Program-made: the position numbers and the translations under genes
Shown: piece after piece, positions 4,044 to 55,480 of the stretch
How positions within the stretch are numbered: the first letter of the stretch is position 1
Layout: each line of letters starts with the position of its first letter
Assembly: GCF_010725725.1 (NCBI RefSeq)
Contig: NZ_AP022599.1
Coordinates: 3,720,001 to 3,784,000, forward strand
Source of the DNA: Mycolicibacterium pulveris
Lineage (GTDB): Bacteria > Actinomycetota > Actinomycetes > Mycobacteriales > Mycobacteriaceae
Direction: 5' to 3'
DNA length: 64,000 bases
Notes under the pieces: model-generated
Told to the model about the DNA's origin: nothing
The model's input: only the letters and a program-made list of their open reading frames with translations
Databases searched by the model: none

Positions 4044-4103
4044 GTGAGCAGACGCGTACACCCCCCGAATCCACAGAAAAAGGGGGTATTCGCGTCTGCT
4101 CGC
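4044..4103. repeat. Intergenic palindrome, family B copy 1 (possible terminator)
   Basis: A 60-bp imperfect palindrome between two minus-strand genes. The outer arms are GTGAGCAGACGCG (4044-4056) and CGCGTCTGCTCGC (4091-4103), matching at 12 of 13 positions. Inside them a C-run (4061-4066) faces GGGGG (4082-4086). The loop is A-rich. The same architecture recurs at 53001-53060. It could fold in RNA as a long hairpin and stop or stabilise transcripts; there is no U-tract. Confidence 0.65.
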
Positions 4104-15720: not shown

Positions 15721-15782
15721 CGCGAGCGTGCGTGTCTGCGGGCGACACGCCGTCTGATTCCGCGAGTTTGCGCACGTTCGCG
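15721..15782. repeat. Intergenic palindrome, family A copy 1
   Basis: A 62-bp imperfect palindrome starting 13 bp after the upstream stop. The outer arms CGCGAGCGTGCG (15721-15732) and CGCACGTTCGCG (15771-15782) pair at 11 of 12 positions. Inside is the hairpin GTGTC-TGCGGGC-GACAC. It is repeated nearly intact at 24080-24139 and 55421-55480. Its position fits a terminator-like or RNA-end element. The rest of the gap to lpqY (15783-15943) shows a short palindrome GCGGGA-GAT-TCCCGC at 15855-15869 and no gene. Confidence 0.7.
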
Positions 15783-24079: not shown

Positions 24080-24139
24080 GCGAGCGTGCGTGTCTGCGGG
24101 CGACACGCCGCCAAAATGCGCGAGTTCACGCACGCTCGC
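24080..24139. repeat. Intergenic palindrome, family A copy 2
   Basis: A 60-bp element between the convergent lpqZ and SDR genes. The outer arms GCGAGCGTGCGTG (24080-24092) and CACGCACGCTCGC (24127-24139) pair perfectly over 13 bp. Inside is GTGTC-TGCGGGC-GACAC followed by GCCG. The centre CCAAAAT is A-rich. The arrangement suits a bidirectional terminator or an RNA 3'-end protector. Confidence 0.75.
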
Positions 24140-34589: not shown

Positions 34590-35939
34590 TTACCCGCCGA
34601 ACAGCACCGCGGGGTTGAGGAATCCGGTCGGGTCGAACGCGGACTTGACCGTCCGCATGGCCGCGATGTCGGCGTCGGTGCGCGACATGGCAAGGTAATC
34701 GCGCTTGCGGGTGCCCACCCCGTGCTCGGAGCTGACGTTGCCGCCCAGCCGCGCGATCAACTCCATCATCGGCGCGTACAGCCCGCGCTCGGCGTCGGGC
34801 CCGCACCGCAACACGTTCAGGTGCAGGTTGCCTTCGCCGATATGGCCGAACAACACGGGAATGGCCTCTGGCGCGTGCTCGGCAACCAGCCGCGTCGCGT
34901 CCCGGGCGAACTTCGAGATACCCGAAAGCGGCAGGGAAACATCGAACTTGAGCGGAGGACCATACACGCCGAGCACCTCGGCGACCGCTTCGCGCACCTG
35001 CCACAACCGCTGCTGTGCGGACATGTCGACGCCGACCGCCGGTTCGCCGGACAGCCGGGCGCCGTCAAGCGCGTCGGCCAGCCGCTCGGTCTGGTCGGTG
35101 TCGCCGGCCAGTTCGATCAGCAGCTGCCACGCGCCGTCGACGGGTGCGGGCACACCGACGTGCTCGGCGGTCAGCGCGCTCGCGCGCGCGTCGATCAACT
35201 CCAGCGCCGCGATGCCGTCCAGATCGCGGAAGAAGCGGCCGGTTTCGATGAGCGCGTCCAGCTCGGCGAACCCGCAGATCGCGGTCACCCGATGCGGCGG
35301 CGCGGGATGCAGCCGCAGATCCAGCCCGGTGATCACGCCAAGCGTGCCCTCGGCGCCGACGAACAGCGACGCGAGGTCGTATCCGGTGTTGTCCATGCGC
35401 ACCCGGCTGTGCCGGTGCAGCACCGTGCCGTCGGGCAGCGCCACGTCCAACCCGATGACCTGTTCACCCATGTTGCCGTAGCGCACGGTGCGCAGCCCGC
35501 CGGCGTTCGTCGACGCCATGCCGCCGACGGTCGCGGTGTCCCTGGCGGCCAGGTCGACGCCGAACACCAGGCCCGCCGCGGCCGCTGCGCGCTGCACCTC
35601 GGCGAGCGTCACCCCGGCCCCGACGGTGATCCGCCGCTCGACGACGTCGACTTCGCCGATGTCACGCAGCCGTTCGGTCGACAGCAGCACGTCGTCGTTC
35701 TCGGGCACCGTGCCGGCCACCAGCGACGTCCGGCCGCCCTGCACCGTGACACAGACGCCTGCGTCGCGGCAGGTTCGTAGCACCGCGGCGACTTCGTCGG
35801 CGCTGCCCGGCCGCACCAGCGCGACCGCGTCGCCCCGGTAGCGCCCGGTGTGGTCGACGCTGCGCCCGGCCAACACGTCGGGGTCGGTGCTGACGTGGGC
35901 GGTCCCGACGATCCCGGAGAGCTGCTCGGACAAACTCAC
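34590..35939 (-). CDS. FAD-linked oxidase, GlcD/D-lactate dehydrogenase type
   Basis: A 449-residue vanillyl-alcohol-oxidase-superfamily enzyme. The FAD-binding half (residues ~40-220) has VTVQGGRTSLVAG and ASTNAGGLRTVRYGNMGEQV; the C-terminal half has FGHIGEGNLHLNV and SSEHGVGTRKRDYL, both hallmarks of the 2-hydroxyacid oxidase group (glycolate, D-lactate, 2-hydroxyglutarate). The substrate cannot be fixed. It is a paralogue of the glcD-like gene at 47092-48465. The ATG overlaps the stop of the upstream nuclease-helicase (ATGA), an odd functional pairing but a tight operon. Confidence 0.88.
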   Translation of the reverse strand: MSLSEQLSGIVGTAHVSTDPDVLAGRSVDHTGRYRGDAVALVRPGSADEVAAVLRTCRDAGVCVTVQGGRTSLVAGTVPENDDVLLSTERLRDIGEVDVVERRITVGAGVTLAEVQRAAAAAGLVFGVDLAARDTATVGGMASTNAGGLRTVRYGNMGEQVIGLDVALPDGTVLHRHSRVRMDNTGYDLASLFVGAEGTLGVITGLDLRLHPAPPHRVTAICGFAELDALIETGRFFRDLDGIAALELIDARASALTAEHVGVPAPVDGAWQLLIELAGDTDQTERLADALDGARLSGEPAVGVDMSAQQRLWQVREAVAEVLGVYGPPLKFDVSLPLSGISKFARDATRLVAEHAPEAIPVLFGHIGEGNLHLNVLRCGPDAERGLYAPMMELIARLGGNVSSEHGVGTRKRDYLAMSRTDADIAAMRTVKSAFDPTGFLNPAVLFGG

Positions 35940-38900
35940 CGATCGGGTGTATCACACGGCGCCAGCGACAGGAACGCGCCCAACTCCACCAGCCGGTCCG
36001 GCGTCGTCGGCAGGTAGTCGGTCAGCAGCGGCGAGCGCACGATCACACAAAGGTACTGGGCCCGGCTCACCGCGACGTTGAGGCGATTTCGGTTGAGCAG
36101 AAACGCGATTCCCCGCGGCGCGTCGTCGGCCGAGGACGCGGCCATCGATACGAACACCATCGGAGCCTGGCGTCCCTGGAACTTGTCGACGGTGCCGACC
36201 TCGATATCGGGGTAACCCGCGGCGTCGAGTCGGCGGCGCAGCGTCACCACCTGCGCGTTGTACGGCGTGACGACGAGCACGTGGCGCTGGGCCAGCGGTT
36301 CCGGGGGGCGGTCCCTGTCGGTCCACGGAGTGCCCAGCAAGCGGCCGATCTCGGCGACGATCGCGTCGGCCTCTTCGGGGCTCTCGGTCGAGTTGCCGTC
36401 GTGGTCGACGGTGAGCACCCGCAGCCCTGGGGCGTGCCCGTCGAGCACACGCGCCGTGGTGACCTCGTCGAACGACTGCAACCTGTTGTCATAGGACAAC
36501 CGCGACACCGCCGAGCACACCGCCGGGTGCATCCGGAAGGAGCGGTCCAAGAAGTAGCCGAGTTCGCTTGGCAGCGTGTGCCTTCCGTCGACCAGCCAGC
36601 CCAGCGCGGACCGGTCGACGGGTTCGGGGTGGGTACCCTGGCTGACCTGCGGGAGCTGCTGCGGATCACCGAGCAGCATCAGGTTGCTCGCCGCCGGTGC
36701 GACGGCGATGGTGTTGGCCAGGCTGTACTGGCCGGCCTCCTCGATCACGAGCAGGTGCAGCGACCGACGCGGAATCTTGGTGGCGTTCGCGAAGTCCCAG
36801 CCGGTGCCGCCGACGACGCAGCCGACGCCGCGGGTGGTGTGCTCGTCGATGAACGTGGCGAACTCGGGGTTGGTCAGCTCGGTCCAGCCGCAGTTGACGG
36901 TGTTGAGCTTCTTGGCGACGTGTGCGCCGTCGACACCCGCCTCCAGCACGTCGGCGAAAAGGTTCTCCACCACCGCGTGTGACTGGGCCACCACGCCGAT
37001 GCGCCAGCCGTGGGCATTGACGAGTCGTTCGATCACCCGCGCCGACGTGTACGTCTTGCCGGTGCCGGGCGGCCCGTGCACGGCGAGGTAGGAGGCGTCC
37101 AGGTCGAGCAGCGCCGCGGTGATGTCGTCTGCGATCGCGCCGCCGTGCGGCAGCGGGTTGCCGCTGCGGGTGCGTGGGGTGCGCCGCAGCAGGATGTCGG
37201 TGAGGGCGTCGCGCGGCAGCATCGGCAGCCCGGCGGCCACCGCGGCCGCGGTTTCCTCGATCGACTCCTCCAGCGGTTTGGTGTTGATCGGCGGACCCGG
37301 AGTCAGCGCGAACGGCAGCCGATCGAACACATCGCCGTTCTTCGGCTGCTTCTCGACGACGACGACTTCGGTCGGCACCTCCGGGTCGTTGCATCCGGTA
37401 ATCGTGACGGCGCCGAACCCACGGCGGTCCGGATCGTCGGTGAGCCCCTCGGGGGCGGGCGGGTCGTAGAGCGCGTACATGTCGCGAGCCAGTTCGCCGT
37501 TGGCGAGCTCGCCGTAAAGCCGTAGATGCCGCTGTGGTTTGCGCGCTTTCGGCGGCCGATGCCAGTCGTGTTCGATCTCCACCCGGTCGGCGATGAACAC
37601 GTCGCCGTCGTCGGCCCACTCGTCGACGGGATTGTTGACCCGGTCGAAGTGGCTCCACCAGAACGGCTTGTGCTCGCGGCGGTGATATCCGCGGGCGGCG
37701 GCGAACATCGCGACCGCGGCCTGCTCCGGCGTGCGCCCTTCGACACCGTCGCCGGCGAACTTGAGCAGTCGGCGTTCGAGGTCGTCGCCGATCTCGATGG
37801 CCGTTTCGTCGTCGCGCACCGGCTGCGGTCCGCGCACGGGCACCCCGGTCTCGATGGCGCGGGCCATCAGCCACTCGCGCAACCGGCGCGTCGAGCGGCA
37901 GTCGTAGAGGTTGTAATCCTCGATCTGCTTGAGCACGGCGGCGGCTTCGGCGGTGTGTCCCTCGTCGCGCAGCGCGCAGTAGCGCGCGTACTGGGTGATG
38001 GAGTCCGCGGCCGTGGTCACCTCGCCGCTGCGTAGCTCCTTGCCCATGTACAGCGGCTCCAGCGACTTGATGCTGTAGTTTTCCGTTCCGACGCGAATGC
38101 TCTTGCGCACCAACGGATACAGGTCGACAAGCACACCGTTGCGCAGCAGTTCGTCGACATCGTTCTCGCCCACGCCGTAGCGCCCGGCCAGACGCAGCAG
38201 GGTGCTCTTCTCGTAGGCCGCGTAGTGGTAGATGTGCATGCCGGGGTAGCGCCGCAGCCGCTTGCGCACCATGGCAAGGAAGTCGATCAGCGCCTGGCGC
38301 TCGCTGGTCCGGTCGTGCGCCCAGAACGGGGTGAATTCGCCCCCGACGGTCAACACACCCCACAGGTACTCCAGGCCCCACTCGCGGCCGTCGGCGGTCC
38401 ACAGCGGGTCGCCTTCGAAGTCGAAGAACAAATCGCCCTTGTTCTCGTCCGGCAGCACCATCAGCGGTTGCGGGTCCACCACCTCGTAGGCGGGTTTGCC
38501 GTCGACCATCGGCATCAGCTGCAGCCGGGCCTGGTCCCGCAGCGCGGTCAGCGCCCGCGACGACAGCTCGGGCACCGGCCCCTCGTGCCGCGCGAGCTCG
38601 GTGACGGTCGTGATGCCCGCGTCGAGGAGCCGGGCGCGCTGACTGATCCGCATACCCGCGACGAGCAGCAGGTCGTCGTGCGCCCGCACCTGAAGCTCGC
38701 ACTCGGGGCAGCGGAAACACGCCCGCACGGTCTCGTCGTCCCAGGCGACGGGCTCGCCGCCGACGAGGTGCTCGTCGAGCAGGCGCTGCAGAGCGGCGCG
38801 CCTGCTTTCGTACACCGGAAGCAGTTCGTCGACGCGGTACTCGACAATGGCGCCGTCGCCGAGCATCAACTCAACGACCGGTGCCACCGGGACACCGGCG

Positions 38901-39358
38901 CGGGCCAACGTGTCGGCGTAGGCGGCGAGTTGCAATAGCGCCTCGACCTTGACCGAACGGGCCAGCTTGGTGTCGCGCAGCCGGTATGCGTCGCCCTCGA
39001 GGATGAGGAAGTCGGCGAACCCGGCGAACCGGCCGTCGAACATCGCGGCCTGGTAGATGACCGGTGCGCGGCGCTGCACGGCGCGCATGGTGGCCTCTGC
39101 GGCCGCGGTCAGTCCCGCCGCGGTGTAGCTGGGTCTGTCGATGATCGCGACGTCGGCGTGGCCCCGCAGCTCGTCGAGATGGCGTTGCTCGTGCTGGTCG
39201 CCGAGCTCGGCGGTGCGGGCCAATAGTTCGTCTTCGACCGCCACGGCAGGACCGCGGCCCAGCTTTTCGTCGAACGCGCGCAGCAGCGCGTACTCGCAGC
39301 GCGCGGCCGCCGCGAGGTCCGAGGCGCTGTAGATGACGCGGTCGTCGGTGACGAACAC
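35936..39358 (-). CDS. RecB-like nuclease fused to UPF1-type SF1 helicase (Rv1251c-like)
   Basis: A 1140-residue protein. Residues 1 to ~500 are a TM0106-family RecB-like nuclease/RNase H-fold region with a cysteine cluster (RACFRCPECELQ) and LFFDFEGDP followed by YHYAAYEKSTL. The C-terminal ~450 residues are an SF1B helicase: Walker A HGPPGTGKTYT, Walker B LVIEEAGQYSLAN, LLGDPQQLPQV, and late motifs GTVDKFQGRQAPMVFVSMA and RLNVAVSRAQ. It probably processes DNA or RNA ends in repair or nucleic-acid quality control. The length equals Rv1251c (about 1139). ATG at 39358. It is divergent from a 90-bp repeat array. Confidence 0.9.
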   Translation of the reverse strand: MFVTDDRVIYSASDLAAAARCEYALLRAFDEKLGRGPAVAVEDELLARTAELGDQHEQRHLDELRGHADVAIIDRPSYTAAGLTAAAEATMRAVQRRAPVIYQAAMFDGRFAGFADFLILEGDAYRLRDTKLARSVKVEALLQLAAYADTLARAGVPVAPVVELMLGDGAIVEYRVDELLPVYESRRAALQRLLDEHLVGGEPVAWDDETVRACFRCPECELQVRAHDDLLLVAGMRISQRARLLDAGITTVTELARHEGPVPELSSRALTALRDQARLQLMPMVDGKPAYEVVDPQPLMVLPDENKGDLFFDFEGDPLWTADGREWGLEYLWGVLTVGGEFTPFWAHDRTSERQALIDFLAMVRKRLRRYPGMHIYHYAAYEKSTLLRLAGRYGVGENDVDELLRNGVLVDLYPLVRKSIRVGTENYSIKSLEPLYMGKELRSGEVTTAADSITQYARYCALRDEGHTAEAAAVLKQIEDYNLYDCRSTRRLREWLMARAIETGVPVRGPQPVRDDETAIEIGDDLERRLLKFAGDGVEGRTPEQAAVAMFAAARGYHRREHKPFWWSHFDRVNNPVDEWADDGDVFIADRVEIEHDWHRPPKARKPQRHLRLYGELANGELARDMYALYDPPAPEGLTDDPDRRGFGAVTITGCNDPEVPTEVVVVEKQPKNGDVFDRLPFALTPGPPINTKPLEESIEETAAAVAAGLPMLPRDALTDILLRRTPRTRSGNPLPHGGAIADDITAALLDLDASYLAVHGPPGTGKTYTSARVIERLVNAHGWRIGVVAQSHAVVENLFADVLEAGVDGAHVAKKLNTVNCGWTELTNPEFATFIDEHTTRGVGCVVGGTGWDFANATKIPRRSLHLLVIEEAGQYSLANTIAVAPAASNLMLLGDPQQLPQVSQGTHPEPVDRSALGWLVDGRHTLPSELGYFLDRSFRMHPAVCSAVSRLSYDNRLQSFDEVTTARVLDGHAPGLRVLTVDHDGNSTESPEEADAIVAEIGRLLGTPWTDRDRPPEPLAQRHVLVVTPYNAQVVTLRRRLDAAGYPDIEVGTVDKFQGRQAPMVFVSMAASSADDAPRGIAFLLNRNRLNVAVSRAQYLCVIVRSPLLTDYLPTTPDRLVELGAFLSLAPCDTPDR

Positions 39359-39390
39359 GCTGCCACTGTAAGCGAGCCGCCCGACACCAC

Positions 39391-39840
39391 CTCCTGGCGC
39401 GAACGTGGGTTACCCGCACGCCTTGAGCGCGTTGGGCGTGTCGCGAGCCCACACTCGTCGATCCCCAACGCCGACAGCACCTCCTGGCGCGAACGTGGGT
39501 TACCCGCACGCCTTGAGCGCGTTGGGTGTGTCGCGAGCCCACACTCGTCGATCCCCAACGCCGCATCCACCTGCTGGCGCGAACGTGGGTTACCCGCACG
39601 CCTTGAGCGCGTTGGGTGTGTCGCGAGCCCACACTCGTCGATCCCCAACGCCGCATCCATCTCCTGGCGCGAACGTGGGTTACCCGCACGCCTTGAGCGC
39701 GTTGGGCGTGTCGCGAGCCCACATTCGTCGATCCCCAACGCCGCATCCATCTCCTGGCGCGAACGTGGGTTACCCGCACGCCTTGAGCGCCATGGGCGTG
39801 TCGCGAGCCCACACTCGTCGATCCCCAACGCCGCATCCAT
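39391..39840. repeat. Tandem array, five units of exactly 90 bp
   Basis: Five consecutive 90-bp units begin at 39391, 39481, 39571, 39661 and 39751, with a partial unit just before. Each has a 58-bp palindromic core (first core 39400-39457, starting CGAACGTGGG and ending CCCACACTCG) and a 32-bp linker that is also conserved. Units differ at a few positions (for example GGGCGTG/GGGTGTG; CATGGG in unit 5). The core contains GGGT-T-ACCC and CACGCC/GGCGTG stems. The period is a multiple of 3, so all frames stay open, but no genuine gene is seen. It fills the 550-bp gap 39359-39908; the rest (39841-39908) shows nothing recognisable. Likely length-variable between strains. Confidence 0.92.
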
Positions 39841-39908
39841 CCACAGCCGTGGCCGTCGTCGCCGGCGCACCGGCCGATCGTGTGAGACCCGCCGCCGACG
39901 GTGACCCC

Positions 39909-40820
39909 ATGAACACGGAATCGATGCCGTTCATCGGCACGGAAGCGGTGGCGGCCGGAACTGCGACCAGGCGGACCTTGGTCAGCCGCCATCAGATGAT
40001 CTATCGCAACGTCTACTTGCCGAAGGCGGTCGAGCTGACGCCCGAGCGGCGCGCGGTCGCCGCGTGGCTGTGGTCCAACCGCAACGCCACCCTCGCCGGG
40101 ATGTCCGCTTCAGCGCTCTACGGATCGCGCTGGATCGACGAAAAGCTGCCGGCGGAGTTGATCCGTCGTGAGGCCTGCCCGGTCGAGGGGATTCTGATCC
40201 ACCGCAACAAGTTGCGCGACGACGAGTTCGTCATCGTGGGACGAATGCCGGTGACGACACCGGCGCGGACGGCATTCGACCTCGGGCGCAGACCTGGACT
40301 CGAGAGCGCGACCATCCGAATCGACGCGCTGGCCAACGCCACCGGTCTCAAGGCCGTCGACGTCGAGCGCCTGGCCGATATCCGTCGTGGGGCCCGCGGC
40401 ATCGTGCAGTTGCGGCGCGTGTTGGAGTTGATGGACAGCGGTTCTGAGTCACCGCAGGAAACGCGGACCCGCCTGCTGCTGACCGCTGCCGGGTTTCCGC
40501 GACCGCAGACGCAGATGGCCGTCATCGATGAGTCCGGTTCGTTCGTTGCCCGCGTCGACATGGGGTGGGAGGAATTTCAGGTCGGCGCCGAATACGACGG
40601 AGCCCAACACTGGGACGACCCCGAGCAACACGCGTACGACATCGATCGCCTGGCTAACCTTGCCGCCGAGGGCTGGCTCATCATCCGCGTGAGCCGAGAT
40701 CTGCTGCGGTATCGACCGCATGTCTTTCTCGCCCGCGTGCGCGACGCGATGAAGGCGCGGGGCTGGCCGGATGCGGACCGGATCCGGCTCGACGCACGCA
40801 TCTCCTGGCTAGACCGTTAG
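39909..40820 (+). CDS. AbiEi-antitoxin-like / DUF559 nuclease-fold protein 2
   Basis: A 303-residue protein. The N-terminal half resembles the AbiEi-type antitoxin family (a region up to NVYLPKAVELTPERRAVAAW, then SASALYGSRWIDE). The C-terminal ~80 residues have the DUF559/Vsr-like fold (FVARVDMGWEEFQVGAEYDG, AQHW, DIDRLANLAAEGWLIIRVS). No cognate toxin is adjacent. ATG 39909 is chosen; the frame stays open upstream through the tandem array, which I regard as non-coding. It is flanked on the left by the 90-bp array and on the right, 5 bp past its stop, by one inverted copy of the same core. Function unknown. Confidence 0.75.
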   Translation: MNTESMPFIGTEAVAAGTATRRTLVSRHQMIYRNVYLPKAVELTPERRAVAAWLWSNRNATLAGMSASALYGSRWIDEKLPAELIRREACPVEGILIHRNKLRDDEFVIVGRMPVTTPARTAFDLGRRPGLESATIRIDALANATGLKAVDVERLADIRRGARGIVQLRRVLELMDSGSESPQETRTRLLLTAAGFPRPQTQMAVIDESGSFVARVDMGWEEFQVGAEYDGAQHWDDPEQHAYDIDRLANLAAEGWLIIRVSRDLLRYRPHVFLARVRDAMKARGWPDADRIRLDARISWLDR

Positions 40821-40825
40821 GCGGG

Positions 40826-40883
40826 CGAGTGTGGGCTCGCGACACGCCCAACGCGCTCAAGGCGTGCGGGTAACCCACGTTCG
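40826..40883 (-). repeat. Inverted solitary copy of the array's 58-bp core
   Basis: Bases 40826-40883, read on the minus strand, match the 58-bp core of the 39391-39840 array over its whole length with essentially no differences (starts CGAACGTGGG, ends CCCACACTCG). It lies in the 90-bp gap between the convergent AbiEi-like gene 2 and lprE. Together with the array it places inverted repeats on both sides of the gene. Confidence 0.88.
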
Positions 40884-40910: not shown

Positions 40911-41468
40911 TCAGCCCGGGGTGTTGCCGATCAGCTCCACGCCGTTGCCGTTCCACCGGAACTTCACCACGCTGTCCAAGCCGGGCACGCCGTTGGAGTA
41001 GCGCAGCGCGACGGTGTCACCGGTGCTGGCGGTCGCATCGATGCCGTTGAACCCGTAGGTGTCGGGCACCCCGTCGGGAATGAACTTGCCGTGGTGAAAC
41101 ATCACCGCGCGGGTGTTGGGGTTCTCGGCGTTGGTGTTGGCCTTCACGATCACCACCGACAGCGGCGCGCATTCGTTGTAGTTGCCCGCCAGCGGCTCGG
41201 GGCTCCACGCCTGGTTGCTGCGCGGATCGCGAGGCAGCTCCGAGACCGCCCTGGCGATCTCGGGCGCGGCGAGGTTGACCTCGCAGGGGTCCGCGGCCGC
41301 CGTCGTGCTCGGTGCCACCGGGGGCAGCGACGACGGCGCCGCCGCTGCCGAGGGAGGCGACGCCGTCGGGCCCGGCGTCTTGGAGACGGTGGAGTCGCCC
41401 GACCCACAGCCGGCAAGGACAGCTGCCGCTACCGCGAGGAGACTGCAGAACCGAACCGTGCACTTCAC
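40911..41468 (-). CDS. lprE: LprE-like lipoprotein (DUF3558 type)
   Basis: A 185-residue lipoprotein. The signal peptide ends in the lipobox LAGC (Cys21; SLLAVAAAVLAGC). A Ser/Pro/Ala linker (about 25-60) leads to a domain with PCEVNLAAPEIARAVSELP and YNECAPLSVVIVKAN, whose two cysteines may form a disulfide. This is the layout of actinobacterial DUF3558-like lipoproteins. Position (between the helicase and deaD) and length fit Rv1252c (lprE). Surface role unknown. ATG 41468. Confidence 0.82.
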   Translation of the reverse strand: MKCTVRFCSLLAVAAAVLAGCGSGDSTVSKTPGPTASPPSAAAAPSSLPPVAPSTTAAADPCEVNLAAPEIARAVSELPRDPRSNQAWSPEPLAGNYNECAPLSVVIVKANTNAENPNTRAVMFHHGKFIPDGVPDTYGFNGIDATASTGDTVALRYSNGVPGLDSVVKFRWNGNGVELIGNTPG

Positions 41469-53000: not shown

Positions 53001-53060
53001 GCGAGCAGACGTGTGGACCCCCTGAAAGCACACCTTTTGGGGGTTTACGCGTCTGCTCGC
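53001..53060. repeat. Intergenic palindrome, family B copy 2
   Basis: Between the convergent LLM and nitroreductase genes: arms GCGAGCAGACGTG (53001-53013) and CGCGTCTGCTCGC (53048-53060), 12 of 13 pairing, enclosing CCCCC (53018-53022) and GGGGG (53039-53043). It is the second copy of the element at 4044-4103. Confidence 0.72.
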
Positions 53061-55420: not shown

Positions 55421-55480
55421 GTGAGCGTGCGTGTCTGCAGCCGACACGCCGACAAAATTCGCGAGTTCGCGCACGCTCGC
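55421..55480. repeat. Intergenic palindrome, family A copy 3
   Basis: Between the convergent amiB2 and hypoxanthine-DNA glycosylase genes. Arms GTGAGCGTGCG (55421-55431) and CGCACGCTCGC (55470-55480) pair at 10 of 11; the inside reads GTGTC-TGCAGCC-GACAC then GCCG. Third good copy of the family. Confidence 0.75.

Follow-up and report, generated by a model that had tools for sequence, protein, structure and literature searches.

What kind of element is formed by a nuclease gene lying between inverted copies of a single palindromic repeat? The question is raised by a locus of Mycolicibacterium pulveris within a 64,000-nucleotide stretch of its chromosome (GCF_010725725.1, contig NZ_AP022599.1, positions 3,720,001 to 3,784,000), referred to here in its entirety as the window. 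The gene (39909..40820, forward strand; ATG start, TAG stop at 40818-40820) encodes a 303 aa protein consisting of an AbiEi-like half and a Vsr/EDxHD nuclease half. On its left is a tandem array (39387..39839, forward strand) of 5.0 copies of a 90 bp unit, each comprising a 58 nt core and a 32 nt spacer (Tandem Repeats Finder, 96% matches). On its right a single inverted core (40826..40883, reverse strand) starts 5 bp past the stop codon and is 100% complementary to the first core of the array and 97-98% complementary to copies 2-5, confirming the arrangement given in the original prediction. It is probable that the gene and its palindromes constitute a selfish pair similar to that of repetitive extragenic palindromes (REPs) and their associated tyrosine transposases (RAYTs), but with a homing-type nuclease taking the place of the tyrosine transposase.

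One half of each core, CGAACGTGGGTTACCCGCACG, is conserved and is the outermost on either side of the gene, and the other half is looser. The five cores of the array lie at 39400..39457, 39490..39547, 39580..39637, 39670..39727 and 39760..39817, all on the forward strand. The half-site of copy 5 is 128 nt from the start codon, matching the position of the single left core in most other species, and among the 18 orthologous loci only that of the window has multiple half-sites on the left. Two other short arrays of this palindrome, hereafter family 1, are present in the source genome with a spacing of 92-93 bp (G000:C1:1270355-1270602 and 4247751-4247903; L029, L031, L027), so local tandem growth recurs there. 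At L125 465 and L146 625, in two species, family 1 half-sites are followed by a common sequence (AAGTCAAGTGGT...TTCATGCTGCTG), which may be a repeated element, for instance an insertion sequence lodged in the palindrome.

Co-occurrence of the palindrome and its gene

The source genome contains 34 matches to the half-site with at most one mismatch, and allowing up to three mismatches in its 21 nt gives 40, compared with none for the reversed control. Among 396 congeneric genomes, the half-site (21 nt, at most one mismatch) is present in 29, of which 20 have 11-34 matches and nine have 1-8; 367 have none, and the reversed sequence has no match in any of the 396. The core is therefore not a universal mycobacterial motif. 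Carriers among the matches listed include Mycolicibacterium elephantis, M. novocastrense, M. tusciae and 'Mycobacterium' lehmannii and neglectum. Chance, or a simple variable number tandem repeat, is rejected as an explanation both by the alignment of the repeats and by the empty reversed control.

Orthologues of the window gene, with at least 73% amino acid identity, are found in 18 of the 396 genomes, the next best genes having at most 67%. All 18 of these genomes are core-rich (at least 11 half-site matches), compared with only two of the 378 lacking the orthologue (at least 10 matches; G149 and G365). This association is highly significant (Fisher p = 3e-29, ignoring relatedness), although the cuts for both orthologue (73%) and core-rich (10 matches) were chosen after the data were seen. 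The proposed co-occurrence of cores with orthologues of the gene is thus upheld; the abundance of cores without the gene, named as grounds for abandoning the idea, is confined to these two genomes, one of which (G149) retains a core stub at the site discussed below. The nuclease family as a whole is found in 386 of the 396 genomes (E ≤ 1e-40), and in 82 of 101 sampled from the order. It is because the family is near-universal that the family 1 palindrome must be said to track a specific paralogue, rather than the family. In G149, a paralogue is split between two frames (L339, L334; G149:C1:4524514-4525393), and 22 family 1 half-site matches remain in the absence of the family 1 gene.

When mapped on a tree of the neighbouring DEAD-box gene, built for 60 genomes, the nuclease gene is patchily distributed, which weakens the explanation that it is simply inherited with its clade, although the tree is of one gene beside the site and has some weak nodes. 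In eight path-independent pairs of genomes, chosen by eye, the member bearing the gene always has more half-site matches: G301 and G194 (20 v 8), G237 and G149 (32 v 22), G170 and G365 (28 v 13), G373 and G162 (11 v 2), G064 and G131 (24 v 4), G157 and G375 (18 v 0), G011 and G108 (17 v 0), and G293 and G226 (29 v 0).

Variation at a single chromosomal site

The insertion site is anchored on the left by a gene encoding RNase_H_2 and AAA helicase-type domains (35936..39358, reverse strand) and on the right by an LppP/LprE lipoprotein gene (40911..41468, reverse strand), beyond which lies the DEAD-box helicase gene. Using these neighbours as anchors, the site was compared between 60 genomes, some flanks being read by eye. 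In all 18 gene-bearing genomes the order is forward core, gene, inverted core, always at this one chromosomal site, so that the absence of flanking cores which could have spoken against the original prediction is not seen. Both half-sites are within two mismatches in 17 of the 18, including G301, where the upstream half-site is 1.4 kb from the gene; in the remaining case, G011, the left arm is worn. Each genome has a single orthologue among the matches listed, sorted by E value.

In 29 of the 42 genomes without the gene, the anchors are no more than 137 bp apart. These comprise 18 empty sites of 38-76 bp with no detectable palindrome (e.g. G375, G020, G066 and G108), lone family 1 cores in G128 and G162, the core stub in G149, likely stubs in G131 and G089 that are not above the shuffle control, strong palindromes of another family in G105, G365, G389 and G419, a weaker one in G118, and one unclassified site (G095). 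Larger gaps, found in ten genomes, contain another paralogue, reversed in orientation (G320, 44% identity; G152, 40%), other genes adjoined by a strong palindrome (G226, G078 and G366) or other sequence (G146, G017, G004, G023 and G029). The left neighbour was not found at the site in G102, G395 and G006. Gene and repeats are accordingly present or absent together, as the prediction of a single block required, with empty sites and lone cores elsewhere. A gene of approximately 1 kb, resembling a membrane channel when read by eye, occupies the site in G226, G078, G366 and G146 (L449, L454, L460 and L442), adjoining another family's palindrome in three of the four.

This pattern could suggest a composite mobile cassette, of which the outer half-sites are the terminal inverted repeats and the lone palindromes are derivatives by internal deletion, akin to miniature inverted-repeat transposable elements. 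At the 17 loci with both half-sites, the conserved half is always the outer one, lone cores in G128 and G162 occur where relatives hold the cassette, and G320 and G152 show that the site can receive another paralogue in the opposite orientation. Nevertheless, no genome has the orthologue at more than one place, no target duplication is seen at the two empty sites that were aligned, and no transposase fold is recognised in the protein, making this explanation improbable.

A second orthologous intergenic site carries a family 1 palindrome in one species and a palindrome of another family, family 2, in a second (L157 v L360), the two sharing an outer CGA...TCG frame. The trees of the nuclease and DEAD-box genes agree for the most part but are in supported conflict at G011+G157 (1.00), a possible sign that transfer has occurred into the helicase-LppP site. 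Identity to the window's left-neighbour helicase is only 56-57% in L481 (G092), L438 (G064) and L442 (G146), against 84-96% for the DEAD-box gene beside the site, perhaps owing to local allele replacement beside the cassette.

Palindromes of the paralogues

Eight further matches to the family (E ≤ 1e-3) are present in the source genome, each accompanied by a different palindrome when the flanks are read by eye. The palindrome is on both sides of five (two with a half downstream), upstream only of one and downstream only of two, although in the latter the matched part begins inside the gene and the upstream side was not read. The analysis was extended to 60 paralogue loci of 53-63% identity, one being the source genome's own second paralogue; as these were taken from the top of the match list, they are near relatives. 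An inverted repeat of 50-68 nt, scoring at least 14, is upstream of 37 of the 60, compared with 11 of 254 control genes at the same loci (p = 1e-22), the boundaries of the controls coming from a home-made codon-usage caller that misses genes. The geometry is the same across families, at approximately 57 nt with arms of about 22 nt and a spacer of 13-16 nt. Among 23 loci belonging to further genera and families within the order, a strong palindrome, by a shuffle threshold, is upstream of 13 and downstream of 15.

These palindromes are private to their genes at most paralogues tested. Where there is a good upstream palindrome, an arm (at least 16 of 22 positions) recurs downstream in 20 of 43 genes, against 4 of 860 control windows. 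The median agreement of upstream and downstream arms is 0.86 in 25 genes, some of them orthologues, compared with 0.41 between genes, and for 19 of the 25 it is above the 95th percentile of the between-gene values. Palindromes and proteins have also diverged together: the similarity of the former is correlated with the identity of the latter (Spearman 0.49), above the values from 500 permutations (standard deviation 0.07, maximum 0.18).

Family 2, with the palindrome CGAACGTTCCTTACCRCTCGAA, belongs to a paralogue at G000:C1:1751213 that is 55% identical to the window protein. At least 10 matches to its half-site are found in six of 60 genomes (G000, G092, G255, G090, G390 and G226), while a further four have one or two. 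The family 2 gene (at least 76% identity) is present in five of those six and absent from the remaining 54; a 73% relative in G064 has a different palindrome.

It could alternatively be supposed that the palindromes are passive landing pads, spread by some other enzyme such as a RAYT or the transposase of an insertion sequence (IS), and that nuclease genes merely insert beside them or use them. Palindromes do persist without the gene in G149, G365 and G390, and REPs in other bacteria are reportedly targets for IS elements. However, the paralogues own private palindromes, and each of two families tracks a different paralogue; because specificity is private to each paralogue, one foreign enzyme hardly explains them, and the landing pad explanation is held to be quite unlikely.

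Positions of the dispersed copies

The strongest rival to the selfish pair is that the palindromes are operators only, the genes encoding autoregulated AbiEi-like repressors and the dispersed copies being a conserved regulon of the same repressor. It earns this position because no feature of the paralogues is more constant than the upstream copy (37/60). Rv2827c represses itself through inverted repeats of like size and spacing (PMC7319586). The placement of the dispersed copies argues otherwise. Of 132 family 1 elements, counting orthologous elements of several species, 126 are intergenic and six overlap a gene called by the home-made caller. With these six excluded, 125 of 140 flanking 3' ends are within 60 nt (median 11 nt), compared with 50 of 112 flanking 5' ends (median 74.5 nt). 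REPs sit near the 3' ends of genes (PMC3733652); this gene-end placement is the habit of a REP, not of an operator. Furthermore, the copies vary between species, different families can be found at one site, and the orthologues of the window gene are bracketed on both sides in all 18 cases. Hence operators alone account for the common upstream copy, but not for the dispersal, and this explanation seems unlikely, if less so than the two already discussed.

Five lone palindromes elsewhere in the window represent two further families, the genes for which are elsewhere in the genome; reversed-pattern controls gave no match in the window. Those at 4046..4101 and 53003..53058 are cognate with the paralogue at G000:C1:1167619, and those at 15724..15779, 24082..24137 and 55423..55478, with ends placed by eye, belong to a third family, cognate with the paralogue at G000:C1:4298702.

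Structure of the protein

The window protein's Pfam matches, to MTES_1575 (E = 1.4e-4), DUF559 (E = 0.0027) and AbiEi_1 (E = 0.019), are all below the curated cut-offs, and NCBIfam gave no match. The 'AbiEi/DUF559-like' label is therefore sub-threshold by profile, yet a fold model backs both halves. Residues 1-176 (39909..40436, forward strand) have the AbiEi fold, and also match the PADLOC AbiEi profile (E = 3.9e-9). Residues 181-286 (40449..40766, forward strand) have the catalytic fold and active-site residues of an EDxHD homing endonuclease, resembling I-Bth0305I. Foldseek returned no match at E ≤ 0.001, the best being 1zel (E = 0.01). Pfam MTES_1575 is matched by 72 of 74 family members and Y1_Tnp by none, the latter search covering these proteins only and not Y1 transposases elsewhere in the genomes. 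The caution that this is a nuclease fold and not a tyrosine transposase, such that it should not be called a RAYT, was consequently correct. The structure alignment comprised 74 family proteins and the specificity correlation 131 unique proteins, nine of 143 family loci being omitted from protein alignments owing to a broken frame or partial match. The 25-residue windows of the protein that best track palindrome similarity start at 76 and 166-181 (0.34-0.38).

A proposed model for the spread of the palindromes

Under the favoured explanation, the AbiEi-like half would bind its own palindrome, as paired inverted half-sites of about 22 bp, 13-16 bp apart, with two protomers on each palindrome. 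The C-terminal Vsr/EDxHD nuclease half would then cut DNA at or near such sites, and repair of the break would copy the palindrome, sometimes together with the gene, into the cut. The gene would thus stay in place as a source, enclosed by its own sites, from which lone palindromes spread to the ends of genes, and paralogues would differ in specificity. The copy close to the start codon probably has a second role, in repression of the gene, by analogy with AbiEi antitoxins. In describing a mobile cassette or a REP/RAYT pair, the original prediction is supported by the co-occurrence, the bracketing and the presence as a block, whereas spread by the enzyme is a step that we infer.

A number of observations weigh against this model, beginning with the fact that binding, cutting and spread by break repair are all three inferred. 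G149 (22 matches) and G365 (13) are core-rich without the gene, and G390, the sister of G090, has 30 family 2 half-site matches without the family 2 gene; the co-occurrence was also tested on nuclease genes only, and not on other clade-restricted genes. A full downstream palindrome scoring at least 16 is found at 7 of 60 paralogues and 7 of 254 controls (p = 0.008), with no significant excess over controls at scores of 12-14. It is not supported as a general rule, and many paralogues consequently have an operator-like upstream copy only. The L157 v L360 comparison is the sole switch of family seen outside the helicase-LppP site, the occupant being the same in 1419 redundant pairs of loci, fetched for holding a palindrome. 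Distances between the nuclease genes and between the DEAD-box genes are correlated (rho 0.65), indicating that the gene is mostly inherited with its neighbourhood, and the lack of a target-site duplication at the two aligned empty sites counts here too. Finally, the window cores form weak hairpins, their folding as single-stranded DNA giving z scores against shuffles of -0.49 and -1.66.

The word 'palindrome' in the original prediction needs qualifying, as the window cores are imperfect, 14 of 21 arm positions pairing when counted by eye. One dispersed symmetric copy of family 1 does fold as a strong hairpin (z = -10.3), and such symmetric copies make up 8 of the 34 instances in the source genome, where each may count once per strand. 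Given the weak folding of the window cores relative to this copy, it is a pair of inverted half-sites, not a hairpin, that is conserved at the gene. Transcriptional terminators are likewise rejected as an explanation for the window cores, since these fold little or no better than shuffles.

No earlier description of this association between a nuclease and palindromes was found among the open-access papers searched, wider topics being judged by the titles of the best matches and subscription papers and preprints falling outside the scope. Nuclease genes with private palindromes appear to be a type of self-spreading DNA that has yet to be described. More tentatively, at rather less than even odds, they may be an order-wide class, in which dozens of nuclease-palindrome pairs with private specificities compete for shared intergenic docking sites in actinobacterial genomes, palindrome families overwriting each other by nuclease-driven conversion, and the biology of REPs having been arrived at independently from an antitoxin-type repressor joined to a homing nuclease. 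If the model is correct, bacterial interspersed palindromes arose at least twice, with unrelated enzymes. Mycobacteriales genomes would then constitute a natural series of protein-DNA specificities, with diverged proteins often having a candidate site beside the gene, and the recognition code, the mechanism of spread and what becomes of palindromes orphaned when their enzyme is lost would be directly testable. It would also offer a role for a near-universal gene family whose Pfam labels (AbiEi antitoxin, DUF559 and MTES_1575) reveal little of its function.

Comparison with known systems

The closest parallel is with REP sequences, the REPINs that they form, and RAYTs. REPs are short inverted-repeat palindromes scattered intergenically near 3' ends, and the enzyme, in single copy although several distinct ones occur in some genomes, is flanked by repeats, which for some RAYTs are long terminal inverted repeats (PMC3116915, PMC3733652). 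Dispersed intergenic palindromes and a single-copy enzyme gene flanked by repeats are both found here. The repeats differ in being approximately 57 nt long, with private half-sites of about 22 nt and 11-34 half-site matches per core-rich genome, whereas REPs are 20-40 nt and tagged by GTAG/CGTC. RAYTs are HUH Y1 tyrosine transposases, whereas this protein is positively assigned to other folds, namely those of a Vsr/EDxHD nuclease and an AbiEi-like half. Because the enzyme is not an HUH tyrosine transposase, the system is REP/RAYT-like without being a member of that class.

The type IV antitoxins AbiEi and Rv2827c share the fold of the N-terminal half. Rv2827c binds pairs of 23 bp inverted repeats, 13 bp apart, and represses its own promoter through them (PMC7319586); inverted repeats of a size and spacing fitting such repression are present upstream of the genes described here. 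Unlike these antitoxins, the protein has a fused nuclease domain, and its palindromes are also downstream and dispersed. No gene for an AbiEii nucleotidyltransferase toxin is adjacent, the neighbours encoding a lipoprotein and a helicase-type protein, and since no toxin partner adjoins, this is not a plain AbiE module.

The C-terminal half, by contrast, is that of the EDxHD homing endonucleases, of which I-Bth0305I apparently forms a dimer on a target just short of 60 bp (PMC3943268). The gene here differs in being free-standing and chromosomal rather than intronic, and in having intact candidate target sites on its flanks. Empty and filled sites coexist at the helicase-LppP site, but because the gene is flanked there by intact sites, it does not appear to be a homing element of a known kind.
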